In this document: positions 7,601 through 52,054 of the stretch, one piece after another
Position numbering within the stretch: the stretch's first letter is position 1
How the letters are laid out: each line of letters opens with the position of its first letter
Virus record (IMG/VR): IMGVR_UViG_3300025102_000043
Span: 1 to 52,698 of that record
Reading direction: 5' to 3' (one strand)
DNA: 52,698 nucleotides
DNA from: a virus
Notes under the pieces: generated by a model
What the model was told of the DNA's origin: nothing
Database searches by the model: none
What the model saw: only the letters and a program-made list of their open reading frames with translations
Made by a program: the position numbers and the translations under genes

Positions 7601-10600
7601 GTTATTCTTCTTTTTATTGCATCTAAAGAATCTTTTTGTTGAGACTCTGTTAATGAATCTCCTTTAGTTATTCTTCTTATTAAAGCTTTAGTACCTATAC
7701 CCAATCTACTTATGTCCATAAAGTTACCCACATATTCTCTAACCTCAAAATCAATGGAAGAAGATAAATCATACATAACTTTTACAGGGTCTTCATTTTT
7801 AAGTATTCTATTTATTGCTTTATCAGATTGTTCTATTCTTTTTTTAACCTCCTCTTGTACATCTTTATTTAAACTTCCTTGTAATCCTTCAGCGTTTTGC
7901 TTATACTCTACTAAGTTTAATAATTCTCTTTTTGATAAGTCACTTAGACTAGTTTTTCCAATAAGGTTTTCCATAGTCTTAAACTTATTTTTAAGACCAT
8001 CTTTTAATTTTTTAGCATCATTTTTTGTAAAAGTTTTAAGTTTACCCCCAACCATAACTTCTTTTCCAATTTGATTATCTATAGCTTTGAAGGTGTCTTC
8101 TTGGTTTGTATAAGCATGATACATTCCATCTTTATACATTCCAGATTTTATATATTCTTTATTAAATGAAGAGCTGACATCTGTAACAGCTGTTGCACCA
8201 GAACCTATAATAGCACCTATGGTAAATTCTTCAAGAGCGTCATTAACATTAAACTTAGTGTCAAATTCATATTTATTCCACCATTGGTCTTTTATTAAAT
8301 CAACAGCAGCACCCTGAGCAAGTTCTTCACCACCCTCTATAACTCCATACTTTAATGCCTTTTTACTAAAAACAGAATTAACAATACCTCTTTTTATAGC
8401 AGCGTCTACCACGTCTTTTCCAACTCTATCGCTTATCGCATCTAAAGCTTTATTTGTAGCCATTCTTTTAACTGATGGGTTAATCATTCCAAAATCAGGT
8501 GTAGCAATCTCTATTACAGAAGAAACTAAAGATGCTTGACTTGCCATATCAGATGCATCTCCAGGTAACATACCTTGTCTAATTCCTTCTGCATAATACA
8601 TATTATACATTCTTATATTGGTTGCCCCATAAAGACCTGCATAAAAACCAAACTTACCAGCTCTCGCTGAGTTTGTTAGTTTTTTTGTACCACCCCCAAC
8701 TCTCTTGGCTATAGTCATATCTAATATAAAGTCAGTAGTTGCGTGTGCTAGATTATAAAAAGAACCACCCCATTCTTTCTTTTTCTGTGTTGGGTAACTT
8801 TCTTTATTATTCTCGTATTCTTTTATTATGTTTGCGTACCTATCAGACTCAGGGTTAATAACATAATTATCTTTAGTTATAATGTTTTTTATTTCATTAT
8901 TGCTATCAAAAATAATAGTGCCATCTTCTACATTCGCATAGTAAACATTACCCATACTCTCAGAGTTTGTTAAACTAGTTGGTTTGTATAACCAAGAAGT
9001 TCCAGCCTCTTCCATGTTTTTAGTAATAAATTCAGATGTAACTCCTGCAATTTTATCTGTCATATCATATTCATTCTCATAAGAAAATATACCTTTTGCT
9101 TGTTGTGGGATTGAAGATATACTTTCCACAAAATTACCCAAAGTTCCTAAAGTTACTGAAGAAATATTTCTTAAACCTTTTCCTAACCAAGTAGATTCAT
9201 TATAAGCTTTCTGACTAGCATTTCTTCTTTTTAATAATTTATCTTGTCTCTTTTTATATACTGGCTCATCTGTTGTAGACATTAAATAATTTAAAGAAGA
9301 GTTATAACCATTTATAAGTTTATCTAAAAGTAAAACATTGTTATCTCCCTTTAAATGATTTTCTCTTTTTAATATTAATTCAGCGTATTTTGTGTTTCTA
9401 AAATTATTAAAATCACTAACGAGCTTATTGTATCTGTTTAGGTCGCTTTGTTTCATGCCTCTAGTATCTAAAGGACCATGAGCTAAAGTTGGAAAATCAT
9501 TAATTAAAGCTAATTGTTCTTTTAACCATTGTTCAGCTAATATTATTTCTTCTCCAATTTGTTCTGTTTTTCTATTTATCTCAGACATACTCTTAGAACC
9601 CTCCATGCTTTTAGATAAATTATCAAATAGCTCTAGGGTAAATTGACCAGCTTTTAAATCATATTCTGATTTTTTTATTTGTTTTTTATCCTCGTTTGAT
9701 ATTGATTCTATCTCTCCTTTTAAAAACGTAGAGTTGTCTAGATTAAATTTTTCATATAATTGATTTATAAGCCCCCCATTAAAATTTTCAGCGATACCAT
9801 CACTATTTATATCTTTTAAGAAATTAGGGTCAGATTGCATTTGATTTATTAATTCTGGTAAAGCAGAGGAAGATGCTAGTAATGGGTTTGCTCCACCTGT
9901 CATATCAGGAGATATAACTACACCTGTTTCAGTATGTTTATATTCTGAGTTACCTAAATGCTCCCATCCAGAGGTAAGGTATTGGTTTATTTTTTCTTCT
10001 ACTTTTTGTATAATATTAAAATAAGTTTTTTTATCATTTGGGTGTCTAACATCTCCCCACCATTGTTTCCAATACTCTCCTTTTTTCATAGAGCTAACAG
10101 GCATAAAAAGATATTTTGTTGGATTACCCTTAAAGTCCTCACTACCTTTAATGTAATGGTTTAGTAATCTTTTTTCATCTTCATCAAGTAAATGAGAAAT
10201 ATCAGACAATTTTAAGTTAGGAATATTACTTTCTTTTCCTGCATGACTTTTATATAAAAGGTCTGTTATATCAAAACCATTATCAATTTTATTTGTAGAT
10301 AAAGCAAATCTACCACGATTCTCTAGGTCATTAATTAATTCTTCTTTAGTAGATGGTGGATTAAATTCTGGGTCAAGGTGTTCATGGTTATGAAACTCTC
10401 CATGAATAGTATCCTCAATAGATTGCCTGTTTCCTAAATTTCTTTTAAATTGAACATGAACATGCTCTCTTGGTCCTCCTTCGTCTTCTATGATGATGCC
10501 TGGACCTCCACCAGCACCCTCTGTCCATTTATTAGCCCATTTTTTACCCTCTGCAGTGTTGTTTACCCAATTCAAAAACTCTTTAGAAGATGGTCCTGTT

Positions 10601-14505: not shown

Positions 14506-17500
14506 TTATTTATTACTAAGTTCACTGTTAATTGTATTTGCATTTACAGCAAACATGTTCATCTTATCTTTAGTTCTTTTTGTTAAGGTTGTGTCCATAT
14601 AGTGACCCTTTAATCTATCTCCTTCTATAGTAGAATTTCTTTTTACAAACATAAAAGTATTTGCTAAAGTAGCTGTAGCATTAGAAGCTAATGTAATCAT
14701 TCTATCTTCATCAATAGTATCTATTACCCCAATTAGTGTTTCAGTTCCAATATTATCATAATAAATTAAATCACCAACACTAATTCCTGCAGTCGTAAAT
14801 GTTGTGTTAGTTGTTGTTCCTTGAACCACTCCACCAACAAGAGCAGACCATGTGGTGCTTCCAAAAATCTCTTCATTACCATTGTTTGAAGAAACATGAC
14901 CTAAACCAATATATTCTCCACCTGATGTATTTGTTTCTCCAAATGGAATATTAGAAGATAAAATTTCCTCTCTTTCTACCCAATTACCTGGAAATAAATT
15001 TCCAGCCTCATCATTTCTATAAGACAGCCTGTGAGTTAAACTAGTTGTATTTATATTTGTTTCTAGTTTAGTTTCGTAAGCTGTATTATCAGCAGATATT
15101 ACAAATAAATTATTAAGTGCAGCTCCAGAAGCTGTTGAACTAGCTGTAATAAAAGCATTAACTTCACCAATAGATGTATTCATATTGGTTCCATTTGTTA
15201 TTGCAGTTATAACCCCAAGAGTTATGAGTGTTCCTTCATCATTATAAAATACAGAGTCTCCAACCATAAAATCATTGTTCTGGAAATCTGTATTAACCCC
15301 AACTAAAGTAGCACTACCAGAAGTTGCTGTAACAGTTGCAGGCTCACCATTTGAATTAGTAGATATTATAGGAATAGATTCTTTTTTAGAAGAACCTTCT
15401 ATTGATAAAACATTCCATGTTTTAACTGTAGAAACATCATTGTTAAATGGAGTAGATATTACAGATTCTTCAGGGTATGGGTTATCATAAAACATATTAT
15501 GATTATCAGGGTCTGAATCATGTTTATATAAGTCTCCATTTTTAAAGCTTATAAAAACTCTATTTAAAGTTCCATAATATTCAGGGTAGAATGTATAAAA
15601 ACTAGTCCACCTATTAGAACTTTCATTAAATGCTAATGTTTGTGGTGATGATGTTAACACATATTCTCTTCCATTGATTTGTTGCTCAGGTCTATCATCC
15701 TCTTCTGGAGTAAACTTATCAATGTCTCTTATTTTTGTTTTAACAGAACGTGTAGCTTTTCTATTTTCAAAGTTTACAGATTCTGCATTAAAATTATTAT
15801 TATTAGTATTAAAGAATGCCATTCTTTGTGGTTTGGTTGTGCTCTTTTCTGTACTATATATACCTGGGAAAGTTACTAAGTAATCACCATGCCTCCTATC
15901 ATACCCACCTAATATAAATAAACCCCCACCTAATTTTTCTTGATACTCAGAAAGTAGTATAGATTGATACTGGTCCATTTTATCTCTAAAGAAATCTTTC
16001 ATTTTATAATCAGACACAACTGTTAATCCATTGCCACCTAATCTTAAAACAGCTCCTTTTCTTATGTCTGTAAAGTATATAGTTTTTTCATGAACAGCTA
16101 CTGACTCTGGGTTTAAAGAAACGCCAAAGTCTCCACCAAAAGGAGTAGCAGTTTGAGGTAAAACATTATTAGATAAAGATATTCCCTCATCTCCTGATGG
16201 TGACGTTATTATAGATTTACTTACTAAAACTTCAGATATTTTCTTCTCTTGCATTAATACTAAATTAGTATCTCTGTTAACAAGTTTTTGAATAGAACCT
16301 AAAGATAGGTCATAGTCCATATATGGTCTTTGGCTAAAATTAAAAGAGTGTAATCCATTATATTGTGTATCTGGTTGGAATACATCAGAGTAAGTTAAAG
16401 TAGCTTCTCTTCTTTGTTCTTTTGCAAAAGTAGAATAAACGTGTGGTCTACCAATGTTACAATGATTAGTTTGCATAAAGTCATTTAAAAAGTAACTTTC
16501 ATATTGTTGACTTCCTAAGATTGCTACATTACCATCTTGGTCTAGTGATGTAAAAAACCTACTTTTCCACCAAACGTCTCCCCTTTTAAATATTCCTTCT
16601 GCAGGGGTGCTTAATGTTTTTTCATTAACATATACTTGACCTTGATTAGCCAAACCTCCCATATGAAATCTATTATCTGCACCAGGGTTTCCTATAAGGT
16701 GTCTTTCGCTAAATTCATGATAAAGAGTTAATTCTTCATTTAAATTTTTCTTAGGTCTATATATTTCAACTATAACTTTATGCCAGTTAGGTAAAACCCC
16801 ATCGCTATTTGCAGTTGATTTATCAAAGTCTGCTATATTTGGGTCAGCTATAATAATAAACTTACCTTCAATAGCGTCTTGAGTTGCGTTTCCACCAACA
16901 GGAGAATCTGAAACCTTTTTTGTTTCATCCATATTTGTCCCCCCTAATTCAAACCTTCCAGGAAAATGCCCAACATCACTAATTTTTAAATCAAAATATT
17001 TTTCAAATAAAGCATTAGCAAAATTAGCACCTTTAGTTATTAGTCTAACTCTATCTCCCTCAGCAAAGCTCCAGTCTCCAATTAAAGATTTATCTTTCTC
17101 ACTATAACTCCAATCTCTACCATCCATGGTATTTAAAGATATATAAAGTTTAGTGTCTGCTTCAGCTTCAGCTTGGGTTGTCCCAGCTTTTTTCCCCATA
17201 TTTATATATGCGTTATCAACAATAAATTGCATATACTTACCAACAGAAGTATTTCTCGCATACGCCCAATGATAATACTTAGCCCATATTGGTGGCTTAT
17301 GAAATATTTTCCAATATATACTTCCTGGATTTAATTTCTCTGGGTCAGTTAAAAGCTCTGTAGATATAGCACTAGGGTTGGTTGTAAGGAATTGTCCAGT
17401 AACTGGACCCATAGCATATTTTTTTTCATTTGGAAAATCTACATAGCATGATGAGTTTCTATCATATGTTGAATCACTAGAGTCTAAAGTGTTTAACATA

Positions 17501-20484
17501 ACAGTAGAGCTTCTTCCCTTTTCATCATAATAAACTAAACCAAATCTATGCCAAGCACCTACTTTAAAAGATGCTTTATCAGCAGCTAATTGTAGGGTGT
17601 TAGCATTGCTAATATTTACGTTTGTTTGTTCTTCCCAGTTATCAACATCTAAGTTTACAGCACCTTTAGCACCATCCCAAGAATTGTTTCCATTATATTG
17701 AACAGTGGATTGGTTACTCCTATATTTTCTACCAGAACCACCCCCTAAAGTGGAAACACCAAATTTATCGCCAGGAGCATCAACAGCAGAAAAATTTGTA
17801 CAGTTAGATAAACCACCTGCATCACTAACGTCTGCATGGTCTCCTTCATCTCCAGCACCATCTACATTTATCCATGAGTGTAAATTAGTAGTAGCTCCTC
17901 CAGGATGATTATGATATGGGGGTTGTATTGAAGAACCAAAAGGGTAATAGTAAGTATCTTTTTGCCTTTTGTCTGGGCATTCATCATCTGGGTATGGGTT
18001 ATTATTTCCATCACCATCATCTTGAACCTCTTGACCATAAGGAACCCACTCCATAAATAGAGCATTATTTGTACCATAACTAGTGTCTTCTTTATATATT
18101 TTTGCTAACCTCATTATAGCAGCTCCTTGTCTTTGATTACCTGTCCAGTCATAGGTATGCGTCTCAGTTCCTGAATTAACCATAAAGGTTGTATATACTT
18201 TACCTGGATTAGGACCATCTTTATGATATGGATTAAAAAACTCATGAGGCTCTCCATTTTCATAAAACTCTTGTGTGGTTCCTCTGTCATCATCTAATCC
18301 AGCACCACTAGGGTCTTGACTAAAGTTAGCCATCTTTTTTATATCTGTTATAAACTCATCAATAAGACCACCAACTCCACCACTAGAAACTTGCCTTGTT
18401 AAATCAAATTGAAAACCAAAATATTTAAAGTTTTTTGAAGTGTCTTGACCTGTATCATAATCTTGAAATGGATATCTAATTTTTATTCCTCTATTCAAAC
18501 CAGTCATGTTGGTGTTTCTTAAATAACTTTGATACCTTTCTCTATGTTGCATCTTTAATCTAAAAGCTTGACCTGACTCAACTATAGTTGGAAACTCTAT
18601 TCTAACAATACTTCTAGCTCCATTAGCATCTAATCCAAAAACTCTCCTACCCTTGCCAGCACTTATTCCATCACCTTCATCTGCATATTCAGTTGTTGCT
18701 CCAAGAGCTGTTGAACTTCCTGAAGGGTATGCGTATGCAACTGCATCTCTTTCATGCATAGCTGTATCTCCCACAACACCATATAAATATGTTGAACTTG
18801 TTCCTCTCCAGGGGCTAAAGTCACCTTCGTTTTGAATACCACCTCCTTCTAGTTCTATATTTTCACTATCACCCTCCCAGGAACCCTCTTCCATCTCCAC
18901 ATAGCTAAGAACATTGTCTACAACATTACCAAGAGCACTACCATCTTTTATAAAAACAGGAGATAAGTGAAAGTGTGGATTAACTTGGTCAAATCCATCT
19001 ATATAGTTTCCATATATAATTCTATTCTCATTTGCTATTTCTTGAGCCTTAGCTCTTTTAGGAACTTGGTCAAACAATTTGTCAAAAGCTATAGGGTCTA
19101 CTTGAGAGTAAACACCATCATTTCTAAAATCAATGTAACCAGATGGCATTTCAGAACGAACAACTGAAGAGCCATTTGCTGCCATAGACCTAATGTATGG
19201 TATGTTAACATTTGAAACAGAAGTCCATCCATATTGTGCGTCTGCAACAGAACTTCCATTTGAGTCAACAGTAATGCTATCAATATATCCAGCCTCTAGT
19301 GATGGGTCATAGGTAGCGTCATAGTAATTATTGTCTACTGTTGCTACTAAATAATATTCCCCTTTATTACCTTCATCTGGAGAGGTTTCTATATATGAAC
19401 ATTTTCTTGCTACAATTTCTATTTTATCAACATCAGAGGGTCCATTGTGATACCAAACTCTAATTTGATTATATGGATTCTGTTTCCCCTCATCTACTTT
19501 ATTTGTATAATATTGAGGTGCAGGAAGAACATAGCTCCATTCTGAATATGCACTTGTCTCGTTGTTTTTATAAATATATCTATAAGCAAATTGCCAAACA
19601 TGACCAAATAGATTATTTTTCTTATAAGCAAAATCAAAGTTTGCGTGAGCCTGTACAGACAATATACCTGCATTAGCAAATGTTATTCCACCAGCTGGTA
19701 CAGATTCAGAGGGTAAAGAAACTTCTTGAGCGTCTGTTAAAGTATTTGTATTTTGAGTTGATGAGGATATATTTCTTATTGGTGTTTGATGAAAGTATAT
19801 AGGGGGGTGTGGTCTATCTTTACATACATCAATGTATTTTAATTTATCTGTATAAGGTACATTTGCATTAACTCCATTATTATCACCACTAGCAGAATAA
19901 AACTCAAATGGGTACATTGTTTCTAAATTAAATGCAGTTGTTGGATTTACAGAATATGCACCACTATCGTAATACACAGCCCACCCAGCTTTAGCCATTT
20001 CTACATTTATATATTTAGGCTCATTATGTTTTTCTTCTCTTATTGGTGATACATAAGAATTATCACTAGTCCAATATAATAAATCACCTATTTTATTAAT
20101 ACCTGTTATTAAAGTATTTTCATCAAATCTAAGAACATTATTTGTTACATCACCACTATCTCTAAATACTGTTGAAACAACATCTGTGTTTATATTATAC
20201 TCAAGTATAGTATGATAAGCCCTTGTGTTAAATAAAAAATAATATATACAACTTTTAGGACTATCTTCATAGGAACCAATAACTTTGTAATCTAATTCTG
20301 TTCTAGGCATAAGTTGAGGAGATGCCTCTTTAACCATCCCTCTAACATTCTCTAGTAACTGAGAACTTCTATTTTCTGAGGATATTATTCGCACATTTTG
20401 AGCGTAGAAATAATCTCCATTAGGGTTTACCCTGGAATCATCATCTCTATTAAGTCCACCTTGAAAGTTCCTTTTGTCTTGCAT
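14506..20484 (-). CDS. Large tail hub/nozzle-type structural protein (1992 aa)
   Basis: The N-terminus MQDKRNFQGGLNRDDDSRV followed by GDYFYAQNVRI is a signature I associate with large tail structural proteins of Bacteroidota podoviruses, equivalent in position to T7 gp12 or P22 gp10 (tail nozzle/hub). The body is beta-rich, with many aromatic residues and Gly/Asn turns, as in propeller or beta-sandwich folds. The C-terminal 400 residues contain two similar segments (SGSATLVGVNTDFQNNDFM and TTTNTTFTTAGISVGDLIY), a repeated small domain. It lies directly downstream of a probable adaptor/ring gene with a four-base gap. Muzzle protein of crAss-like phages is the nearest alternative name. Structural role is secure from context; the exact part is inferred. 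Confidence 0.75.
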   Translation of the reverse strand: MQDKRNFQGGLNRDDDSRVNPNGDYFYAQNVRIISSENRSSQLLENVRGMVKEASPQLMPRTELDYKVIGSYEDSPKSCIYYFLFNTRAYHTILEYNINTDVVSTVFRDSGDVTNNVLRFDENTLITGINKIGDLLYWTSDNSYVSPIREEKHNEPKYINVEMAKAGWAVYYDSGAYSVNPTTAFNLETMYPFEFYSASGDNNGVNANVPYTDKLKYIDVCKDRPHPPIYFHQTPIRNISSSTQNTNTLTDAQEVSLPSESVPAGGITFANAGILSVQAHANFDFAYKKNNLFGHVWQFAYRYIYKNNETSAYSEWSYVLPAPQYYTNKVDEGKQNPYNQIRVWYHNGPSDVDKIEIVARKCSYIETSPDEGNKGEYYLVATVDNNYYDATYDPSLEAGYIDSITVDSNGSSVADAQYGWTSVSNVNIPYIRSMAANGSSVVRSEMPSGYIDFRNDGVYSQVDPIAFDKLFDQVPKRAKAQEIANENRIIYGNYIDGFDQVNPHFHLSPVFIKDGSALGNVVDNVLSYVEMEEGSWEGDSENIELEGGGIQNEGDFSPWRGTSSTYLYGVVGDTAMHERDAVAYAYPSGSSTALGATTEYADEGDGISAGKGRRVFGLDANGARSIVRIEFPTIVESGQAFRLKMQHRERYQSYLRNTNMTGLNRGIKIRYPFQDYDTGQDTSKNFKYFGFQFDLTRQVSSGGVGGLIDEFITDIKKMANFSQDPSGAGLDDDRGTTQEFYENGEPHEFFNPYHKDGPNPGKVYTTFMVNSGTETHTYDWTGNQRQGAAIMRLAKIYKEDTSYGTNNALFMEWVPYGQEVQDDGDGNNNPYPDDECPDKRQKDTYYYPFGSSIQPPYHNHPGGATTNLHSWINVDGAGDEGDHADVSDAGGLSNCTNFSAVDAPGDKFGVSTLGGGSGRKYRSNQSTVQYNGNNSWDGAKGAVNLDVDNWEEQTNVNISNANTLQLAADKASFKVGAWHRFGLVYYDEKGRSSTVMLNTLDSSDSTYDRNSSCYVDFPNEKKYAMGPVTGQFLTTNPSAISTELLTDPEKLNPGSIYWKIFHKPPIWAKYYHWAYARNTSVGKYMQFIVDNAYINMGKKAGTTQAEAEADTKLYISLNTMDGRDWSYSEKDKSLIGDWSFAEGDRVRLITKGANFANALFEKYFDLKISDVGHFPGRFELGGTNMDETKKVSDSPVGGNATQDAIEGKFIIIADPNIADFDKSTANSDGVLPNWHKVIVEIYRPKKNLNEELTLYHEFSERHLIGNPGADNRFHMGGLANQGQVYVNEKTLSTPAEGIFKRGDVWWKSRFFTSLDQDGNVAILGSQQYESYFLNDFMQTNHCNIGRPHVYSTFAKEQRREATLTYSDVFQPDTQYNGLHSFNFSQRPYMDYDLSLGSIQKLVNRDTNLVLMQEKKISEVLVSKSIITSPSGDEGISLSNNVLPQTATPFGGDFGVSLNPESVAVHEKTIYFTDIRKGAVLRLGGNGLTVVSDYKMKDFFRDKMDQYQSILLSEYQEKLGGGLFILGGYDRRHGDYLVTFPGIYSTEKSTTKPQRMAFFNTNNNNFNAESVNFENRKATRSVKTKIRDIDKFTPEEDDRPEQQINGREYVLTSSPQTLAFNESSNRWTSFYTFYPEYYGTLNRVFISFKNGDLYKHDSDPDNHNMFYDNPYPEESVISTPFNNDVSTVKTWNVLSIEGSSKKESIPIISTNSNGEPATVTATSGSATLVGVNTDFQNNDFMVGDSVFYNDEGTLITLGVITAITNGTNMNTSIGEVNAFITASSTASGAALNNLFVISADNTAYETKLETNINTTSLTHRLSYRNDEAGNLFPGNWVEREEILSSNIPFGETNTSGGEYIGLGHVSSNNGNEEIFGSTTWSALVGGVVQGTTTNTTFTTAGISVGDLIYYDNIGTETLIGVIDTIDEDRMITLASNATATLANTFMFVKRNSTIEGDRLKGHYMDTTLTKRTKDKMNMFAVNANTINSELSNK

Positions 20485-32360: not shown

Positions 32361-32645
32361 TTATCTTTTTGCAAATTTCTCAGCTAAACCTTTTTCAAAG
32401 TCTTTTTCTTGTTTAAACTCTCCTTGAGCAATTTGTTCTTCTAACTTAGATATACCTATAAGTATTTCTTGTGCGTCTAAAAAACATTCTTTTTTTGCCT
32501 TAATAGCATTTCTTCTTTTCTCATCAGATAAATCAGGGTCTAATGGAGTTCTTATATCTTCTATAAGTATAGCCACAGCTTCTTTTGATGAGTCTATAAG
32601 GTCTTGTAGGGTTCTTTGTACGTATGATTTATTACTTTCCTTCAT
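32361..32645 (-). CDS. Small helical protein upstream of terL, possible small terminase
   Basis: This 94-aa protein is almost wholly helical by sequence (LIDSSKEAVAILIEDIR, KKECFLDAQEILIGISKLE) and strongly charged. It ends four bases before terL and overlaps the upstream co-chaperonin gene by 14 bases. Position and size would suit a terminase small subunit or a packaging helper, but no helix-turn-helix is evident and it is shorter than most small subunits. A structural helper of the terminase is equally possible. Confidence 0.5.
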   Translation of the reverse strand: MKESNKSYVQRTLQDLIDSSKEAVAILIEDIRTPLDPDLSDEKRRNAIKAKKECFLDAQEILIGISKLEEQIAQGEFKQEKDFEKGLAEKFAKR

Positions 32646-33282
32646 TGTTATATAACGCTAATATGTCTTCGTTTCTCATTCTTAACATTTTTTTACCTTC
32701 TATAGTCATCTCATATTCAGAGTTTTCTGAAAAAATAACCTCATCTCCAACATTAACCCCTTGTTCTTTTAACCAACTGTTCATATGTAACACGCTTCCA
32801 TGAAGGGTTATATCTTCTACTTCAGGTTTTATAAATATACCTGATTTAGTTTTTATGCTATCTTCGTCTTCTGTTTTTTGTTCAATAAAATTCCAATGAT
32901 GTAACATTTTTAATTTTCCTTTTCTAACTCTAGCATACATCTGTTGCCAATGAACCTTATATATATTTTCTTTATCTATCCATGTTACTAGATTTTCACT
33001 TTTAAGGTCTTGAGATGATTCATTAGCAAACTGTTGGTCTACAGTAACTGCACCAACAGAGCCTGTTATATGATGGTGAAAATAAACTTTATCACCTTTC
33101 TTAACATCAAAATCTAAACCTTCTGGTAACCAATCTGGATTTTCGTAAACAATACCATATTGTCTAGCAAACGTATATGGGTCCCATTTTACGTCTAATG
33201 AAATTTCTAAACCATTTAATTCTACAGTGTCTTCGTAAGGTTTTTCTACCTCTACCAAGAAATAATTTTTTGGTATCTTCAT
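32632..33282 (-). CDS. Tandem GroES-like co-chaperonin
   Basis: The C-terminal half (about 145-212) closely follows GroES: KSGIFIKPEVEDITLHGSV, then GVNVGDEVIFSENSEYEM, then MLRMRNEDILALY, which matches the end of bacterial GroES (VGDxVxFS...IxxExxLxMxExDILAxx). The N-terminal half repeats the plan: NYFLVEVEKP, ARQYGIVYENPD, DVKKGDKVYFHHH (63-71), and NIYKVHWQQMYARV. So two GroES-like folds appear to be joined in one 216-aa chain, twice the normal ~95-aa length. Phage T4 gp31 shows that phages use such proteins to fold capsid protein with host GroEL. It lies just upstream of the terminase-portal-capsid block. Function by analogy. Confidence 0.7.
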   Translation of the reverse strand: MKIPKNYFLVEVEKPYEDTVELNGLEISLDVKWDPYTFARQYGIVYENPDWLPEGLDFDVKKGDKVYFHHHITGSVGAVTVDQQFANESSQDLKSENLVTWIDKENIYKVHWQQMYARVRKGKLKMLHHWNFIEQKTEDEDSIKTKSGIFIKPEVEDITLHGSVLHMNSWLKEQGVNVGDEVIFSENSEYEMTIEGKKMLRMRNEDILALYNNEGK

Positions 33283-36975: not shown

Positions 36976-37368
36976 TTAATTAAATTTTGCTAACATTATT
37001 TTATCTATACTTTTTTGAACATCTTTTTTAGTTGCTTCCAACTCAAACATTATGTTCGCTTTAAATCTTTCCTTTTCCTCACCACTTTCAAATATAATTA
37101 CAGTGGGAATAGAAGTTACTTTATATTTTTCTTGCAAGTTAGGGTATTCTCCAATATTTACCCTATATTTTTCACAATCTCCTAATTTACTTAAATCTGC
37201 AAATTCATTACCACTATTCCATTCAACCCAAAATTCTACAGCAACAATATCTTTTGTTGTTTTTTCATTAAAGTTAGATGGCGTTAAAAACTCTTGACCA
37301 TTTATTTTTGCAACTGAAAATAAAACAATTAAGAATATTAACAATAATTTTAAATCTAAATATTTCAT
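36976..37368 (-). CDS. Exported thioredoxin-fold protein lacking active cysteines
   Basis: This 130-aa protein starts with a signal peptide or anchor (MKYLDLKLLLIFLIVLFSVA, probable cut near GQ-E26). The rest follows thioredoxin: VAVEFWVEWNSGNEF where the WCxxC motif should be, a central helix, YKVTSIPTVIIFESGEE with the cis-proline at residue 88, and a C-terminal helix. The two catalytic Cys are replaced by Asn (W50-N51-S-G-N54), so redox activity is unlikely. A binding, folding-helper or inhibitory role outside the cytoplasm is inferred. It lies one base after the membrane protein gene and before the 57-aa Cys-rich gene. The single remaining Cys65 lies outside the motif. Confidence 0.7.
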   Translation of the reverse strand: MKYLDLKLLLIFLIVLFSVAKINGQEFLTPSNFNEKTTKDIVAVEFWVEWNSGNEFADLSKLGDCEKYRVNIGEYPNLQEKYKVTSIPTVIIFESGEEKERFKANIMFELEATKKDVQKSIDKIMLAKFN

Positions 37369-37653
37369 TTAATTCATTTTATCTATTTTATCTCTGAGGT
37401 ATTTCATGTCCTCTTTTATTTCATTAACATCTTCTTGCGTTGTTAATATAGTTTGACGTATCATTTCGTCTTTCATTTTAAATTCCATTTTAGTAACTTC
37501 TGGTGGGGGTGCTATTGGAAGTTCTTTTGCTTCAGCTATATCAGCTTGCAGTGTAAACCACATACCTACAAAAGCAAAAATTAAAACTGCTAAACCACCA
37601 AGTGATTTTAAACTTACCTCAAATTTAGATTCTTCTGATATTTCTTTTGCCAT
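37369..37653 (-). CDS. Membrane protein with coiled-coil tail, holin/spanin candidate
   Basis: With the ATG at 37653 the protein is about 94 aa: a charged N-terminus (MAKEISEESKFEVSLKS), one membrane span (LGGLAVLIFAFVGMWFTL), a Pro-rich linker (ELPIAPPPEVTK) and a coiled-coil C-terminus (QEDVNEIKEDMKYLRDKID). The frame stays open to 37689, but that start would overlap the upstream gene by 32 bases and add an unlikely MAIIIWVEKS. The layout of one span plus an outer coiled coil is seen in some holins and i-spanins; I cannot decide between them. It ends one base before the thioredoxin-fold gene. Confidence 0.6.
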   Translation of the reverse strand: MAKEISEESKFEVSLKSLGGLAVLIFAFVGMWFTLQADIAEAKELPIAPPPEVTKMEFKMKDEMIRQTILTTQEDVNEIKEDMKYLRDKIDKMN

Positions 37654-37657
37654 TGTT

Positions 37658-39451
37658 TTAGATTTTTCTACCCATATTATAATTGCCACTCTTAGCTCTT
37701 TTCTTTAAAGCAGGTTTTGTTGCAGGAGCTACCTTCTTAGCCATATCATGAACTGATAATGCAGCACCCACATAACCTAATCTTTTAAGAAGTGCTTTAC
37801 CTCCTTTTTTTGCTAATATTCTAGCTATTTGGGTTTTAGTCAACTTCTTAGTTCCTCCTTTTAAAGGTTGCTTTATTTTTTTAAACTTTGCATCTCTTTC
37901 TTCCATTTTTTTTAGGTATTCTTTCATACCATCACTCATTTCTCTAGCCATTGGAGTTCCTCCATCTTTATATGGTCTTTTCATAAAGTTTGTTCCTCCA
38001 CCTGGGTACTTACTTACTTTTCCACCATCTTTATATGGTCTTTTCATAAAATTAGTTCCTCCTCCTGGATACTTTTTCATAACGCCTCCTTTTTTATAAT
38101 TTTTCATAACTCCTCCTTTTTTATACATTCCTGAATTGCTTGCAGCCTTATCTGCTTTTTGCTCTTTTCTTATTCCTTTACCTTCCTTACCTTGGTCAAA
38201 AGCTCTATCTGATTTTCTTTCTTTTCTAGCAGCTTTTCTTTCTTGTCTATTTACGTAAGCTCTATCTGAAGATTCCATATTCATACTGTCTCCATGCATA
38301 GCCATTCCACCCATATTATATTCTCTAACAGGCTCATTCGTTCTGGATTTTTTAAACTTATCGTAATTTTTTAAATTCATATTACCTCTTGGAGAAGATA
38401 TTCCAAGTTTATCTTTTAGATTTCTATACCATCTTCTAGGAGAAATCATTCTTCCACCAGTGTATCTAAAACCTCTATCTTCTCTGCTTTGTTGTCTAGC
38501 TTTTCTTCGCATTGTTCTTCTATACTGTCTAGACTCTTTTCTGTATTTTTTACGTGCTTCTCTTTTTCTTTTTCTCTCTAGTCTATCTTCCATTCTTTTC
38601 TGCCTTCTAGCTTCTCTTTCGTCAAATCTTTCGTCTTTAGTTTTTTTAACTTTAATAGTTTTATTTGATTCTTCTGTTGGGTTTTTGTCTTTATTGTTGT
38701 TTTTATTTCTATTAATATCTTTGTCTCTTACTACTTGTGGTGTGTCAGAACCTTTATTGTAATTACCTTCACCATCTTCTTCATCCATTTCTATTGGATT
38801 TATTTCATCACCATTTACACCACCTTCATTATATTTTCTTTTTATAAAGTTTGTCCCTCCTCCTGGATATTTTTTTACCTTTCCTCCACCTTTATATGAT
38901 GATTCTTTTTTAGGCTTCATATTAGTATTAACCTCCTCAGTTAATACTTTTTTATAACTTGGGCTATCTTCAAAATCTGACACTTCACCCCAATATGTAA
39001 ACGACTTATAAGCTTTGCTATTTTTAGCATCTTTATATGCTTTTGAGTTTATCATTTCATCATAACTCATAAAATTAGCACCTGGCTTTTTAGACTTATC
39101 ATCGTCAGTTACCCCACCAAGAGCATACATTTTTTTATCTTTTTTGGCTTTTTGTTTTGGTTTATTTGGTGTTGAATCTGATACTTTATCATCTAAACCC
39201 CCTGTTGCATCATTAGCTAATTCACCTTCTTTTTCTTGGTCTTCTTTTATTTTAGTAGAATAAACATTCCTTTTTTCTAATAAGTTAAACTGTTTTGGTC
39301 TAAACTTAAAAGTCTCTTCTCCTGCAGCACGTTTTTTCTTAAACTTTTTATTAAACCTTTTTCTGGTTCTACTTTCTTTTTTTGGAGTTGTTGTTGCGTC
39401 TGTTGTTGTTGGTGTTTTTCCACCTTTTACATATTTATCTAACATTTTCAT
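37658..39451 (-). CDS. Basic virion-type protein with repeated Y-x-x-G-G motifs
   Basis: This 597-aa protein is very Lys/Arg-rich and largely disordered. It contains at least ten copies of a short aromatic-Gly motif: KYVKGGK, MYALGGV, KYPGGGT, KYNEGGV, EYNMGGM, MYKKGGV, NYKKGGV, KYPGGGT, PYKDGGK, KYPGGGT, PYKDGGT. A 19-residue unit (KYPGGGTNFMKRPYKDGG) occurs in near-perfect tandem around residues 465-510. An Arg-rich block (RRTMRRKARQQSRED) lies in the middle. The C-terminus is more ordered. It follows the related 768-aa gene by three bases. Strong positive charge suggests DNA contact inside the capsid or during ejection; that is inference. Confidence 0.65.
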   Translation of the reverse strand: MKMLDKYVKGGKTPTTTDATTTPKKESRTRKRFNKKFKKKRAAGEETFKFRPKQFNLLEKRNVYSTKIKEDQEKEGELANDATGGLDDKVSDSTPNKPKQKAKKDKKMYALGGVTDDDKSKKPGANFMSYDEMINSKAYKDAKNSKAYKSFTYWGEVSDFEDSPSYKKVLTEEVNTNMKPKKESSYKGGGKVKKYPGGGTNFIKRKYNEGGVNGDEINPIEMDEEDGEGNYNKGSDTPQVVRDKDINRNKNNNKDKNPTEESNKTIKVKKTKDERFDEREARRQKRMEDRLERKRKREARKKYRKESRQYRRTMRRKARQQSREDRGFRYTGGRMISPRRWYRNLKDKLGISSPRGNMNLKNYDKFKKSRTNEPVREYNMGGMAMHGDSMNMESSDRAYVNRQERKAARKERKSDRAFDQGKEGKGIRKEQKADKAASNSGMYKKGGVMKNYKKGGVMKKYPGGGTNFMKRPYKDGGKVSKYPGGGTNFMKRPYKDGGTPMAREMSDGMKEYLKKMEERDAKFKKIKQPLKGGTKKLTKTQIARILAKKGGKALLKRLGYVGAALSVHDMAKKVAPATKPALKKRAKSGNYNMGRKI

Positions 39452-42733: not shown

Positions 42734-44629
42734 ATGGGTACGAAAACAATTACACCCAGAAGTAATAACGATGGGCAGATAGGTTCATCTTCTAAGTATT
42801 GGGATAAAGGATTCTTTAATGACCTTCATGTTAATAATCTTCACACATCACCTTCGTCAACTCTTTCTGCAAATGCAATATCTGTAACAGCAAATGCAGG
42901 AATTTTATTTGAAGGTGCTATTGCTGATGAGTTTGAGACAGTGGTTACTGCTATAAACCCAACAGCAGATAGAGGGATTCTTTTACCAGATGCTTCAGGT
43001 ATATTTGCTTTAACTTCTGGTGTTGGTGTGACAACATTAAGTGGTACAACAGCTAATGGTTTTGTAACATTTGCAAGTTCTGGAGTATTAGATGTTGAGT
43101 CTACTATTGTATACGATGGGAGTGATAGTGGATTAACACACACTCCACTTGCATGGTCTAGCACTAAAAAATTTCACGTATTAGATTTAAATGATTCTGC
43201 TGCTTCTAGCACTCGTAACTGTATAGGTCTTGAAATTGATTATGATAAAACAGTTGATACAGGTGGTGGAGATGTTATAACAGCTGCTGGTTTGGATGTG
43301 ATTTTAAATGACGCTGCAACAAGTAATGCTGGTACTACAATTTTATATGGAATTAGAAATCAGAATACTCTTGCTAATGCTAATGGTACTACTTCTATTT
43401 ATGGTATTCAAAACGCATTATCTGGTGGTGATATTCAATGGGGGATTAGAAATGTTTGTTTAGGAGGAACTGCTGCAACAACAACTGGACTTTATCAAAT
43501 AGTAGAAGATGGTGGAATTGATATTAGATTAAATAGTTCTGCTGATACTGGAGATTATTTTTCTATAGCAACAACAACTCATGGTGCTACAACAATTAGT
43601 ACAGTAGATGACGATACTACTTTAGCTCATTTAACACTTGATGTGCATGGTGATATAACATTAGATGCCCAAGGCAAAAATGTATATATGGCAAGAGATG
43701 GTAGTAATGTATTTGATTTTAATGTAGACACATCAAGTATGAAAATAATGGACACTACAGACAGTGGAGATTATTTTTCTATAGCAACAACAACTCATGG
43801 TGCTACAACTTTAACAACAGTAGATGATGATAACAGTGGTAGCGCTGCCTCTGCTGATTTAACTCTAAATATTGATGGTGATATTGTTTTAAATTCTGAA
43901 ACTGGTGCTGGAGCAACAGGTGGAATTAAATTTCAACAAGTAGGAACAGAGTTTATGAATTTTACAGCTCATCATGCTGGTTCTTTTTTGCAGATACTTG
44001 GAAATGGTGGAACTTCTACAGGTGATTCATTCTTTATAGACGTAGCAGAACATGGAGACACAACTTTAACAACAGTAGATGCTGCTGGAGCTCAAGGACA
44101 CTTTAGAATTGAGTCAGATGGCGATATAATATTAAACCCTGGAAGTGGTAATATACAAATTCAAGATACTGCTGCAGAATTGGTTTCAGCAGGTCAACAT
44201 ATACATAAACAAGTTAAAGTTGTTTTGTCACAAGCTAATTGTAATGATTTACATTCTACACCTATAGAACTTATACCTTCTCAAGGAGCTAACACTATTA
44301 TAGTTCCACAATCAGGAATAATGATGGTAGATAATAATACATCTGTAAACCAAACAAATAGTTCAGCAGATTTAAATTTTCATTACGCTGATAAAGAACC
44401 TGGAGCTTATGGAACTACAACATTGTTTCACATAAGAAGATTTATGAATACTAATCATTTAACTGATATAGTTTATTCTTTAGGTGAAATGAGTGGATTT
44501 GAAATATCACAAAATTTAACAGACTGTGTAGATAAAGCTGTAGAAGTCTCTGTAGACTCTGCATTAACTAATAATAGTATGACTTCAATAACTATATATT
44601 TAAGTTATCACGTAATAAACATATCGTAA
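42734..44629 (+). CDS. Second tail-fibre protein with internal repeats
   Basis: This 631-aa protein starts MGTKTITPRSNNDGQIGSSS followed by KYWDKGFFNDLHVNNLHT, a typical fibre/baseplate start where G-x-IG-x-x-xKYW is common. The middle holds three copies of a unit GDYFSIATTTHGATTIST-VDDD followed by an ordered HLTLDVHGDITLDAQG strand. Two copies are encoded by a 44-base perfect direct repeat (43550 and 43766). The C-terminus after GNIQIQDTAAELVSAGQH is a separate folded head ending in LTSITIYLSYHVINIS-like strands. The shaft-repeat plus variable head plan fits a fibre or adhesin for host binding. It starts 12 bases after the preceding gene. Confidence 0.75.
   Translation: MGTKTITPRSNNDGQIGSSSKYWDKGFFNDLHVNNLHTSPSSTLSANAISVTANAGILFEGAIADEFETVVTAINPTADRGILLPDASGIFALTSGVGVTTLSGTTANGFVTFASSGVLDVESTIVYDGSDSGLTHTPLAWSSTKKFHVLDLNDSAASSTRNCIGLEIDYDKTVDTGGGDVITAAGLDVILNDAATSNAGTTILYGIRNQNTLANANGTTSIYGIQNALSGGDIQWGIRNVCLGGTAATTTGLYQIVEDGGIDIRLNSSADTGDYFSIATTTHGATTISTVDDDTTLAHLTLDVHGDITLDAQGKNVYMARDGSNVFDFNVDTSSMKIMDTTDSGDYFSIATTTHGATTLTTVDDDNSGSAASADLTLNIDGDIVLNSETGAGATGGIKFQQVGTEFMNFTAHHAGSFLQILGNGGTSTGDSFFIDVAEHGDTTLTTVDAAGAQGHFRIESDGDIILNPGSGNIQIQDTAAELVSAGQHIHKQVKVVLSQANCNDLHSTPIELIPSQGANTIIVPQSGIMMVDNNTSVNQTNSSADLNFHYADKEPGAYGTTTLFHIRRFMNTNHLTDIVYSLGEMSGFEISQNLTDCVDKAVEVSVDSALTNNSMTSITIYLSYHVINIS
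43550..43809 (+). repeat. 44-base direct repeat in second fibre gene
   Basis: Positions 43550-43593 and 43766-43809 are identical over 44 bases. They encode the same GDYFSIATTTHGATT segment of two shaft units. Exact identity at DNA level, while flanks differ, suggests recent duplication or gene conversion between units. Confidence 0.85.
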
Positions 44630-44630
44630 T

Positions 44631-45170
44631 ATGGTACTAACAGCAAAAGCATACGAATCATTTTTTGCAACTTCTGGAGGAGGTGCAAGAGAAATAGACA
44701 ATACAACATTAACAAATATAGAATCAGCTTGGGATGCAGAAAAAGCAGATGGTTGTAGGAAATATGTTGATGACCCTATCTTTGCTCCTATTATTTTTCA
44801 ACTTCAAAAAATGCAAGATGAAATAGATTATCTTAGAACAGAGGTGTCATCCAATAAAGATAAGGCTACATTTCCAGGACTAGGAACTAGTAGCACTACA
44901 GCGTTAGCTGGTGACACAACAGTTATAGTAAAGGCACAAGCTGATGCTATAATACAAAACACAGCCAAGACTAGTATGACTTTAGGTACAAGTGGTAGCA
45001 CAGCATTAGCTGGTGATACTAATATAGTAACAATAGGTAGTAGCACAACAATAGCGTTTGGTGATATGATAACAGTTCCAGGAAAAGGAAAAGTACCAGC
45101 ATCGTATAATATAGTAATGACAGTTACAAATAGTGGAGTAAGTAAAGCAATAACATTAACATTAACATAA
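44631..45170 (+). CDS. Fibre-associated protein (179 aa)
   Basis: This 179-aa protein begins MVLTAKAYESFFATSGGGA and has a charged helical stretch (FQLQKMQDEIDYLRTEVSS) followed by two similar Ser/Thr/Gly-rich halves (LGTSSTTALAGDTTVIVKA and LGTSGSTALAGDTNIVTIG). Ends with a beta segment. It starts one base after the fibre stop. A fibre-tip or fibre-chaperone role is likely from its place; the coiled helix plus repeat could form a trimeric shaft. No family is recognised. Confidence 0.6.
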   Translation: MVLTAKAYESFFATSGGGAREIDNTTLTNIESAWDAEKADGCRKYVDDPIFAPIIFQLQKMQDEIDYLRTEVSSNKDKATFPGLGTSSTTALAGDTTVIVKAQADAIIQNTAKTSMTLGTSGSTALAGDTNIVTIGSSTTIAFGDMITVPGKGKVPASYNIVMTVTNSGVSKAITLTLT

Positions 45171-45206: not shown

Positions 45207-46235
45207 ATGAAAAGAATAATAATACTGTTACTAATGGTAAACATTTGTGCACAAGCACAAATCCAAGATTTTTTTAAATACTCAACTGTATATACATCAA
45301 TGACAATGAACACATCTTTTATTGAAAGAGATGATTATATAGCTGTGCAAAAAGGATATGAGGATGTAACACAAGTTAATCCTTATGATTATAATTTAAC
45401 AATAGGTTTAAGAAAAATAGCAAGATTTGATTATGAGTACAAGGTTAAGACATGGTATTATGGCACTGAAAAAGGTGTTGCAGACAATGTTACTATTGGT
45501 AACGCTGTTGGTTGGGAGTATTTATTTAATTATTCATTTATACGTAATCGTGGGGATAAGTATACTGAACAAAATTACTGGATTAGATACTTGGGAAATT
45601 GGTGTGTTACCAAAGTCCAATACAAAGACAATCAAAGAGTAGATTTAAGATATAACTCTTTTGATACTAGATTTAGATTAGCTAAAGGTAATTGGGATTT
45701 AACTTTAGGTGGTGTATTTAGAATGCATAACCCATATGGAATTAGCCCTATAGAAGATTTTTGGACACCAGGAGAACAGTCTTTTAAACAACTAGCTGAA
45801 TCCTTTGGTTATAGTACAGAGTTTGTTAATGGTGATTGGCACTGGTTTAACGATGGAGAGTTAATAGCTACATCTGATGACGAGTTCTATAAACATTATT
45901 TTGGAAATGCAGTTGCATCATATAATGAAAGAGAATTAGAAAAACTTGGTATGCAAAAACAGTTGAGTGCTGTCATAGGTGTAGCATATTATAAGTATAC
46001 AGATAGAATGTGGTTACATACGTGGATTAATTGTATGCCTTTTCATTATGGTTTAGATGATTATTCTTTTGAATATGGTATAGAAGATTATGATAATATA
46101 GAGTGGGACGCTGGTATTGTTCTTGGTTCTCGTATAACTAAGCATTTAGGTTTATTTATAGAAGGAACACACATGCGTTATTGGATGAAACCAGTATATG
46201 AAGTGAAGTTTGGTTTTAATTATTTAATATTTTAA
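45207..46235 (+). CDS. Phage-encoded outer-membrane beta-barrel protein
   Basis: This 342-aa protein has a clear signal peptide (MKRIIILLLMVNICAQAQ, cut before IQDF). The mature part is rich in Tyr, Trp and Phe in alternating polar/nonpolar stretches, e.g. YNLTIGLRKIARFDYEYK, NYWIRYLGNWCVTKVQYK, WDLTLGGVFRMHNPYG, KHLGLFIEGTHMRYW, and ends VKFGFNYLIF. The C-terminal aromatic residue is the Bam recognition mark of outer-membrane barrels. Such phage-borne barrels might change the cell surface, for example to block further infection, or aid release; this is inference. It is followed two bases later by another exported gene, so the two are probably co-expressed. It is longer than the small Lom/OmpX-type phage barrels. 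Confidence 0.75.
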   Translation: MKRIIILLLMVNICAQAQIQDFFKYSTVYTSMTMNTSFIERDDYIAVQKGYEDVTQVNPYDYNLTIGLRKIARFDYEYKVKTWYYGTEKGVADNVTIGNAVGWEYLFNYSFIRNRGDKYTEQNYWIRYLGNWCVTKVQYKDNQRVDLRYNSFDTRFRLAKGNWDLTLGGVFRMHNPYGISPIEDFWTPGEQSFKQLAESFGYSTEFVNGDWHWFNDGELIATSDDEFYKHYFGNAVASYNERELEKLGMQKQLSAVIGVAYYKYTDRMWLHTWINCMPFHYGLDDYSFEYGIEDYDNIEWDAGIVLGSRITKHLGLFIEGTHMRYWMKPVYEVKFGFNYLIF

Positions 46236-46237
46236 TT

Positions 46238-46882
46238 ATGAGAAAAAGTATTTTTATTTTATTTGTATTGTTAAGTTGGTTTTGTAAAGGTCAGGGTTAT
46301 GATTTTCAACAATTATGTTTAGACTGTGCCACTCAGGGTGGTTATTATTGTGGAGACGACCCAGCTAATTGGACTCAATATGCTCCTGATGGATGTGTTC
46401 AGACAGCATGGTTAAATGATTCATGGGAAGATTGTGTAGACGCAGGTGATGAGAATGGAGCTGTTCCAACTACTCCATTAGATTGTGCTCCTGATGAAAT
46501 TCCTTGCGATACTATTTTTGTAGATATTCCTGTAATTGAATATGAATACATATACGAAACAGACACAATTATTCAAATTGAAACAGTAATAGAAGTAGAA
46601 TATACGTATATTACAGATACAGTAACAGTTTATGAAGATGTATTAGACACTATGTTTATAGATGTTATAGAATATGTTGAGATATTTGTTATTGATACAA
46701 TAGTAGAATTTGAAACAGAATATTTAGATTGTGAAACAGGTATGCCATGTAATACTTCTATTCCTGAAATATTAGAAAAATCAGAAAATGATGGTCGTAT
46801 GTATAACATTCTAGGTCAACCAATACAAAGACCAGAAAGTATATACATACACGATGGTAAACTTAAATACATATTAAACTAA
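46238..46882 (+). CDS. Exported Cys-rich protein with T9SS-like C-terminal tail
   Basis: This 214-aa protein has a signal peptide (MRKSIFILFVLLSWFCKGQG). Residues 21-90 form a Cys-rich region (LCLDCATQGGYYCGDDPAN, DGCVQTAWLNDSWEDCVD). Then comes an acidic repeated strand region with TDTI/V units (ETDTIIQIETVIEVEYTY, ITDTVTVYEDVLDTMFID, VIDTIVEFETEYLDC). The last 29 residues (186-214) hold RMYNILGQPI, then SIYIHDGKLKYILN, which matches the end of the type A T9SS sorting domain (YNxLGQ...GxYIxxGKxxK). The full sorting domain is usually longer, so only its C-terminal part is visible. This suggests delivery to the host cell surface by the host T9SS. It overlaps the next gene by one base. Confidence 0.65.
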   Translation: MRKSIFILFVLLSWFCKGQGYDFQQLCLDCATQGGYYCGDDPANWTQYAPDGCVQTAWLNDSWEDCVDAGDENGAVPTTPLDCAPDEIPCDTIFVDIPVIEYEYIYETDTIIQIETVIEVEYTYITDTVTVYEDVLDTMFIDVIEYVEIFVIDTIVEFETEYLDCETGMPCNTSIPEILEKSENDGRMYNILGQPIQRPESIYIHDGKLKYILN

Positions 46883-47241
46883 TGTATACTTATAAAGCAA
46901 AGTTAGATAGAGTTGTTGATGGAGATACTATAGATGTAAATATAGACCTAGGTTTTGATATATCAGTTCATAAGAGAGTTAGATTAGCAGGTATAGATAC
47001 TCCTGAGAGTAGAACTAGAGACTTAGAGGAAAAAAAACGTGGCTTAGCTGCTAAGGATAGATTAATAGAAATACTTGATAAAGGTGATTTACAGGTAGAA
47101 AGTAAAGAGGTTGGTAAATATGGTAGAGTTTTAGGTGTATTAACTATATATCCTGACAATCTAGGTTTACCAATTAATGTTAACGACACATTGGTGAGTG
47201 AAGGTCATGCAGTTGAGTATAATGGTGGTAAAAAGAAATAA
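46882..47241 (+). CDS. Thermonuclease-like (SNase) protein
   Basis: This 119-aa protein fits the staphylococcal nuclease fold. Catalytic and metal residues all have equivalents: VVDGDT with D15, RLAGIDTPE with R34, D39 and E42, and KYGRVLG with R82. It is short, lacking an extended C-terminal helix, but the last part with DTLVSEGHAVEY matches the strand-helix end of the family. No signal peptide is present, so it acts in the cytoplasm, perhaps on host DNA or mobile invaders, or is packaged. The start codon overlaps the preceding stop by one base (TAATG). Active-site conservation suggests a working nuclease. Confidence 0.8.
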   Translation: MYTYKAKLDRVVDGDTIDVNIDLGFDISVHKRVRLAGIDTPESRTRDLEEKKRGLAAKDRLIEILDKGDLQVESKEVGKYGRVLGVLTIYPDNLGLPINVNDTLVSEGHAVEYNGGKKK

Positions 47242-47243
47242 TT

Positions 47244-47465
47244 ATGAATATATTTAGAAATGATAATAATTGGAATGAGAAAGCTATAATAGGTTTTGTA
47301 GCATTTCTTATTATGTGTTTAATAATGGTTGCTGATTTAGTAACAGGATGGGTTGGAAAAGACCTCATCATCAATAAATTCGTTTACGACAGTTTTGTTT
47401 GGGTTGTGCTTGGATGTTTTGGAATCAGTGGTGTAGAAAAATTTGCAGGTAATGGCAAAAAGTAG
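47244..47465 (+). CDS. Holin candidate with two membrane spans
   Basis: This 73-aa protein has two hydrophobic spans, IIGFVAFLIMCLIMVADLV and VYDSFVWVVLGCFGISGV, a charged N-terminus (NIFRNDNNWNEK) and a Lys-rich tail (KFAGNGKK). Size and layout fit class II holins. The DLVTGWxGKDxxIN segment between spans is common in small phage membrane proteins. It lies two bases after the nuclease and its end overlaps the next gene by 14 bases. No endolysin lies adjacent; lysis genes may be dispersed (DUF5675-like protein at 1127, M15 domain in the giant virion protein). Confidence 0.6.
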   Translation: MNIFRNDNNWNEKAIIGFVAFLIMCLIMVADLVTGWVGKDLIINKFVYDSFVWVVLGCFGISGVEKFAGNGKK

Positions 47466-51124: not shown

Positions 51125-52054
51125 ATGAAAAAAGACGTTTATCAGATTATAACAGATGAAGTAATCAAGGGATTAGAAACTCAAGGTCTAACATGGTTCA
51201 AATCATGGGCAGGGAATACAGACACAATGTGTATCAGCCATACAACAGGTAAAATTTACAGAGGTATAAATCAGTTATTATTATCAATGGCAATGATGCA
51301 ATATGACTACTCAAGTAAAGAATTTATGACCTTTAATCAAGCCAAGAAACTAGGGGGAAAGGTCAAGAAAGGTAGCACATCACATATGGTAGTTAACTGG
51401 AGAGTAGCATACTTTGTAACAGATAGCAAAGGCAAGAGAATATATCTAAAGGGCAAAAGCTTAGAAGAGTTAGTAATTCCAAAGGGTTACACCATGAGCG
51501 ATGTTGACAAGTCAATGAGTGCAAGTTATTTCAGAGTATTTAATCTGGATTCTGTTGAGGGTATTCAGGACAAATGGAATATCGATGAAGTTATTGAAGG
51601 TAGTATATTTGAGCCTATCAATGAGGCTGAACAGGTATATACTAATATGAGGAAAAAACCTCAATTAATACACCAAGATAATGTTGGTTGTTTTTACAAG
51701 CCATCTAATCATATGATTAATATGAGTACTCAAGAGACATTTACTACTCCTGATGATTATTATAAAGTTTTATTCCATGAGTTGAATCATTCAACAGGTC
51801 ACGAATCTATACTAAATAGAAAAACTTTGAACTCTCCAAATCATAACAAGGTTGCATATAGTCAAGAGGAGTTAGTAGCTGAGTTAGGAGCTATGTTTCT
51901 AACTAATCTAACAGGTATTAAACCAAAGGGAGATGATAGAAATAGTCAAGCTTATATTAATGGTTGGATAAAGCATTTAAAAGACCACCCAAAAGAAATA
52001 ATTTTTGCGAGTAGTCAAGCTCAAAAATCAGTCGAGTTTATACTTAACAGATAA
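51125..52054 (+). CDS. ArdC-like antirestriction protein
   Basis: This 309-aa protein has the two-part plan of ArdC. The N-terminal half (DUF1738 type: MKKDVYQIITDEVIKGLETQ, TGKIYRGINQLLLSMA, KKGSTSHMVVNWRVAYF) matches the single-stranded DNA-binding domain. The C-terminal half is a zinc metallopeptidase with HELNHSTGH near residues 218-226 and EELVAELGAMFL as the third ligand region. Plasmid ArdC proteins protect incoming DNA from host restriction. Here it is the first early gene after a strong promoter, which suits protection at the start of infection. Similar proteins also occur in phages as replication-linked proteins, so the antirestriction role is inferred. Confidence 0.85.
   Translation: MKKDVYQIITDEVIKGLETQGLTWFKSWAGNTDTMCISHTTGKIYRGINQLLLSMAMMQYDYSSKEFMTFNQAKKLGGKVKKGSTSHMVVNWRVAYFVTDSKGKRIYLKGKSLEELVIPKGYTMSDVDKSMSASYFRVFNLDSVEGIQDKWNIDEVIEGSIFEPINEAEQVYTNMRKKPQLIHQDNVGCFYKPSNHMINMSTQETFTTPDDYYKVLFHELNHSTGHESILNRKTLNSPNHNKVAYSQEELVAELGAMFLTNLTGIKPKGDDRNSQAYINGWIKHLKDHPKEIIFASSQAQKSVEFILNR

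Follow-up and report, generated by a model that had tools for sequence, protein, structure and literature searches.

The gene studied here (46238-46882, + strand) encodes a 214-residue protein from an ATG start, a putative T9SS cargo protein hereafter called the cargo, and its ORF begins 2 bp past the stop codon of 45207-46235 (+), which encodes a predicted outer-membrane β-barrel of 342 residues. Both lie in the window, by which we mean the whole stretch of DNA analyzed, an IMG/VR record of 52,698 bases classed as linear. A sequence-only reading had taken the cargo for a phage protein. In agreement, the window contains TerL (phrog_6681), portal (phrog_6547), and virion protein genes, and its terminase is similar to those of Flavobacterium and Cellulophaga phages. 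Other features of the window include a strong match to an anti-restriction family at 51125-52054 (+) (phrog_7245, E 1e-65), a GroES-like co-chaperonin at 32632-33282 (−) (phrog_13932, E 2e-22), and two very large minus-strand ORFs at 1630-11382 (3250 aa) and 14506-20484 (1992 aa). Gene calls in the analysis scripts were mechanical ORFs, and all relatives are metagenomic.

The cargo begins with a Sec signal peptide (residues 1-18; 46238-46291, +), predicted to be cleaved before Gln19. This residue is invariant in a 40-member alignment, in agreement with the Bacteroidetes Q-rule (PMC5837995). Seven Cys (27, 30, 38, 53, 66, 83, and 90) are likewise invariant within the head that follows (46295-46507, +), so that the signal peptide and the Cys-rich part of the sequence-only reading are both borne out. 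The head appears to resemble an LDL-receptor class A (LDLa) module with one Cys pair missing. Of the 40 members, 27 gave a PF00057 match at E≤1 (best E 7e-4), with the window protein scoring 12.8 bits, below the cut-off of 24.1, and inspection of the alignment indicated that the fourth and sixth LDLa Cys are absent. In Foldseek searches with the AF2 model of the head (pLDDT ~88), VLDLR LA modules ranked first, without significance, and a PDB sequence search with the cargo gave chance-level matches only, several of them to VLDLR/LRP modules. The head pattern C-V-x3-W-x2-D-x3-D-C-x-D-x2-D-E retains the positions of the LDLa calcium-site residues. Membership in the LDL-receptor class A family was rejected on the sub-threshold Pfam score and the loss of two of the six Cys. 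Apart from this LDLa match, searches of the cargo against TIGR04183, TIGR04131, Pfam, and PHROGs returned nothing.

Residues 90-163 (46505-46726, +) form a stalk of 74 residues with five DT-plus-hydrophobic copies, a number reached by 2 of 10,000 shuffles. These had been described as repeated TDTI strands; the repeats hold, while the strands are unproven because AF2 shows none confidently (pLDDT ~30). A Cys-bounded junction, D-C-E-T-G-M-P-C (residues 164-171; 46727-46750, +), near-invariant in phage and host tails, connects the stalk to the C-terminal tail.

The upstream product (45207-46235, +) has a signal peptide, and its C-terminus is aromatic (...EVKFGFNYLIF). Its AF2 model (pTM 0.71) consists for the most part of antiparallel strands, and the PDB matches listed by Foldseek at E≤0.001 were outer-membrane barrels or barrel-containing proteins. 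These matches are generic (such as FapF, OmpG, and OMPLA), with low TM-scores of about 0.2-0.45. A BFVD search with the model also returned a viral protein, UniProt A0A516LKJ4 (29% identity, TM 0.65). Searches of Pfam (to E≤10), NCBIfam, and PHROG gave no family above chance. Assignment to PorP/SprF was rejected on sequence, given the lack of any Pfam family at E≤10 or NCBIfam family.

A first IMG/VR scan for the cargo yielded 9 relatives, and a second with an alignment query yielded at least 129, of which 80 were kept. Of 38 records searched for copy number, 37 matched with a single cargo each. The exception, a 212 kb contig (L009), was placed outside the family counts because only the stalk and junction are common to both and its CTD is type B (TIGR04131, 35.0 bits, exactly at the cut-off). 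There, a secreted protein of 599 aa (4747-6546) combines this stalk and the DCETGMPC junction with a type B CTD. It adjoins an apparent metalloprotease spread over two ORFs (3475-4747), which has a dockerin domain and a terminus resembling a CTD.

In all 76 cargo relatives long enough to tell, the barrel gene lies upstream on the same strand, with a gap of -4 to 4 bp in 52 of them. The cargo is thus half of a strictly conserved pair, a point absent from the sequence-only reading. As the cargo always follows a barrel gene, the two appear to constitute a dedicated, widespread phage pair for decorating infected ocean Bacteroidota cells. Close pairs gave dN/dS values of 0.12 for the head, 0.08 for the stalk, and 0.10 for the tail; the cargo is under purifying selection and its tail is retained. 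Host contamination, or recent capture of a host gene that no longer functions, might be entertained on the grounds that the same modules occur in host genomes (see below). This was rejected as extremely improbable, being contradicted by TerL and portal in the window, by the gene's presence in at least 129 contigs, and by a dN/dS of ~0.1.

The tail (46751-46879, +) comprises a helix (175-185), motif B (YNILG), motif D (SIYI), and motif E (GKLKYI), as assigned from alignment, AF2, hhalign, and comparison with the short CTDs of Prevotella intermedia. The sequence-only reading had proposed that the protein ends in the terminal part of a type A T9SS sorting domain, shorter than a full one. Its final motif (RMYNILGQPIQRPESIYIHDGKLKYILN) is 28 residues long rather than the 29 given there. 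Our data instead fit a complete short CTD. Counted from Cys171, the tail has 43 residues, within the 43-55 aa range of short CTDs, and it stands at the extreme C-terminus of a protein with a signal peptide. Tyr189 and Gly193 of motif B are invariant in alignment A2. The tail pattern was counted in 83 proteins, and every one had Tyr-x3-Gly, exactly 7 residues, and then (G/S/D)xY or GxF. Motif D reads GxY in 65 of these relatives, SxY in 11, DxY in 6, and GxF in 1, so that 17 of the 83 have Ser or Asp at the Gly position, which is Ser in the window protein. At least one Lys or Arg occurs among the last 8 residues in 83 of 83, giving a basic motif E. The AF2 model of the tail (pLDDT ~82) contains a short helix and a small sheet (strands at ~188, 195, 203-205, and 208-210), in keeping with the three-stranded sheet of short CTDs, and no Ig-like sandwich.

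The proposed profile search against TIGR04183 (Por_Secre_tail) returned nothing at E≤10 with either the protein or its last 75 residues, nothing for the whole contig, and 0 families for 26 tails. A full-length TIGR04183 sorting domain was therefore rejected, as the curated cut-off was not reached. We attribute the negative search to the tail being a complete short CTD and no fragment of the 70-residue domain. The sequence-only reading had named the combination of no profile match and a tail unlike the Ig-like fold as evidence against itself, and taken as worded this combination is what we found. Export by the T9SS is still supported by host proteins with the same tail, by the alignment of the tail profile with that of host short CTDs, and by full TIGR04183 domains on cargo of sister modules. 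In short, the idea of a T9SS signal survives, and that of a fragment of a longer domain does not.

The profile-profile comparison by hhalign aligned the tail with host short CTDs at P 97.8% (E 1e-12), a likeness that is partly circular because the host set was collected with the viral profile. Against independently chosen TIGR04183 CTDs the score was 19.6, compared with a maximum of 17.3 in 200 column shuffles, and motif B was in register; this alignment is short and of low probability, with 15 columns matched at an hhalign probability of 17%.

The same tail is found on host chromosomal proteins. A scan of bacterial genomes revealed the stalk and tail together on a leucine-rich repeat (LRR) protein (503-residue ORF, L084) of the single-cell genome AG-343-M05 (G001). 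The setting reads as chromosomal, with neighbors that look like lysyl-tRNA synthetase, LipB, RpiB, RseP, and Dxr, and the genome encodes 25 TIGR04183 proteins. Tail profile A3 found chromosomal proteins of marine Flavobacteriales in G001, G007, G051, and G082 (E 1e-22 to 1e-25). In three more genomes of the order of AG-343-M05 the tail follows other domains, including Cys-rich repeats (L106). Weaker matches to the profile were mostly secreted proteins with the motif at the end, and a mixed profile extended to short-CTD-like tails of other Bacteroidia. Host genomes G007, G033, and G042, all of which have SprA, also encode proteins with the cargo head. Hosts with such tails are small-genome marine Flavobacteriales with SprA, which was found in 18 of 19 and then 5 of 5 genomes, counts drawn mainly from genomes already chosen, with no class-wide background frequency for comparison. 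These common surface-protein modules, along with one phage contig inside a genome assembly, link the uncultured phages to T9SS-bearing marine Flavobacteriales, as far as sequence can indicate.

That contig (G122:C32) came from a profile search of host-order genomes, which returned one distant barrel homologue (32% identity). It is also an IMG/VR record, and the assembly in which it sits contains SprA. Within 2 bp of its barrel lies a gene for a secreted protein of 994 aa, in which TIGR04183 matches residues 928-994 (53.6 bits, cut-off 23). An IMG/VR scan with this barrel revealed at least 541 relatives. Among 80 fetched loci, 69 had a CTD protein on the same strand no more than 4 genes from the barrel, immediately upstream in 48, compared with 7 of 704 ORFs farther from the barrel. 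Several of the 11 loci lacking a nearby CTD protein have the barrel at or near the contig end. All 56 distinct cargo C-termini submitted matched TIGR04183, a measure of strength rather than an unbiased rate, because they had been preselected with a local model for which host CTDs served as the source. Together, the 69 loci and 56 C-termini establish a barrel plus T9SS cargo as a recurring phage module. With a homologous barrel beside a gene for a C-terminal CTD in 76 of 76 short-CTD loci and 69 of 80 sister barrel loci, the window carries the small-cargo version of this module. Four barrel phages (L191, L201, L223, and L216) encode a further secreted protein, small and with a short CTD at its end, and in L191, L201, and L223 it occurs besides the large long-CTD cargo.

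These findings also bear on whether the cargo could be a virion or tail component, with the tail motif serving as a trimerization or assembly element. The gene is just downstream of 42734-45170, a region of fibre-like genes by reading, where a 179-aa product has a sub-significant PHROG virion-protein match. The invariant Gln19 of the signal peptide, the tails of host chromosomal proteins, and the canonical CTDs of sister cargo all speak against this reading, which we rejected as very improbable. It is very probable that the tail acts as a T9SS signal. That the window protein matches no T9SS model counts against this explanation, as does the replacement by Ser of the motif D Gly, which is absolutely conserved in P. 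intermedia CTDs (PMC11969387), although the G324A substitution in HBP35 had no effect. On balance, we consider export of the cargo by the T9SS highly probable, and its T9SS-dependent display at the surface is well supported.

Three small genes of the window have homologues beside the barrel and cargo of sister module L164/L165. A 73-aa membrane protein (47244-47465, +), found in 41 window-family loci, has a homologue adjoining the large cargo (58% identity, E 8e-28). The homologue of a 106-aa protein (37369-37689, −) follows the barrel gene (58.5% identity, E 3e-40); it has 94 aa, with a TM helix and a charged, helix-like C-terminal part, and homologues occur in 67 loci of the window family and in 66 of the 80 barrel loci. 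The adjacent thioredoxin-fold protein (36976-37368, −; PF00085 E 2.4e-6) matches the 109-aa product of the next gene in L165 (E 3e-24), where all three homologues stand beside the barrel and cargo, followed by an amidase. Directly 3' of the window cargo is a staphylococcal-nuclease-like protein (46882-47241, +), homologues of which also occur in sister-group loci.

The order in L164/L165 (the pair, then the TM protein, thioredoxin-fold protein, and amidase endolysin) and the presence of both small-gene homologues in most loci of both groups would suit a late envelope or lysis module, in which the barrel, cargo, and small membrane and thioredoxin-fold proteins weaken or disrupt the outer membrane when progeny are released. 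Lysis is thus a possible rather than a demonstrated role, because amidases neighbor the barrel in just 18 of 80 barrel loci and in 1 window-family locus. Moreover, the two small genes of the window are 8 kb off on the opposite strand, and a T9SS-anchored surface protein would be an odd tool for lysis. We regard this reading as unlikely.

We favor, with more confidence than doubt, a two-gene module for surface display by the host T9SS. In an infected cell, the barrel (45207-46235) would insert into the host outer membrane, and the cargo would be exported by Sec, losing its signal peptide before Gln19. The host's own T9SS, reading the short CTD, would then carry the cargo over the outer membrane, so that the LDLa-like Cys-rich head is shown on its stalk at the cell surface. 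Retention there could be due to the T9SS attachment step, the co-encoded barrel, or both, perhaps as PorP/SprF hold type B cargo. Contact between barrel and cargo we infer from the pairing, and that the two work together is likely. Against this explanation, the barrel belongs to no known T9SS shuttle family by sequence, and neither gene occurs in cultured phages of the phage collection, where the cargo gave only a chance-level tblastn match (E 3) and the barrel none.

The displayed pair would most likely alter binding to the infected cell, and we tentatively favor, as its purpose, the exclusion of superinfecting phages or the masking of the receptor that the phage itself uses. Equally tentative is a broader form of the display model: the viral barrel may receive and anchor viral T9SS cargo, whether a large protein bearing a long CTD or a small one bearing a short CTD, in the manner of a PorP/SprF or PorV shuttle, and may build with the two small membrane and periplasmic proteins a cross-envelope complex that excludes competing phages or prepares release. 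Alternatively, the cargo could be an adhesin through which an infected cell attaches to particles or to other cells, or a carried accessory whose benefit is unrelated to phage competition. Its head and tail are host surface-protein modules, and LDLa-like heads and Cys-rich repeats fit binding. However, the fixed one-to-one pairing with the barrel and the single copy in 37 matching records suggest a core phage role over an exchangeable accessory, and we hold this alternative to be rather doubtful.

In the literature searched, T9SS use by phages is limited to scattered reports of sorting domains in single phages or clusters. With a fixed pair under purifying selection in well over 100 contigs of one group, and relatives in another numbering in the hundreds, T9SS export would belong to the ordinary course of infection by these phages. 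Surface display by such a pair would offer a tangible way into the question of how Bacteroidota phages alter the exterior of the cells they infect, and the short CTD is a candidate secretion signal short enough to transplant.

The closest counterparts of the tail are the short CTDs of P. intermedia, which are cleaved and glycosylated (PMC11969387). Both stand at the C-terminus of a protein with a signal peptide and have Tyr and Gly in motif B, xY-Ile in motif D, a basic motif E, little spacing between B and D, and a predicted small sheet. In contrast, the window tail is phage-encoded, its motif D Gly is often Ser or Asp in relatives, no P-T/G-I cleavage consensus was seen, and it is known here from sequence alone. 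An outer-membrane barrel beside its own T9SS cargo recalls the PorP/SprF shuttle and anchor proteins (PMC12618676, PMC9143113), from which the window pair differs in a barrel with no PorP/SprF match and a cargo CTD that is type A-like rather than type B. As a putative phage-encoded component of the envelope, produced during infection, the cargo is also comparable to the superinfection exclusion proteins Llp and Cor; T5 Llp is a periplasmic lipoprotein whose gene adjoins that of the receptor-binding protein (PMC9586334). This analogy is one of purpose only, without homology.

Among phages, Cryophage encodes cargo with a T9SS type A CTD (PMC7468147), and a BACON cluster of crAss-like phages encodes T9SS sorting-domain proteins (PMC6949934). 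The window cargo resembles these as a phage protein bearing a T9SS sorting signal. Theirs are recognized sorting domains, however, and those of Cryophage belong to variable accessory genes, whereas the window cargo has a short CTD, a single copy per phage, and a strict pairing with a barrel. A barrel-cargo pair was not described in the literature searched on phage outer-membrane proteins and the T9SS in viral genomes. Phage-borne T9SS cargo being already known from Cryophage, what appears to be new is its constant association with a phage-encoded barrel and the presence of a short CTD in a phage.
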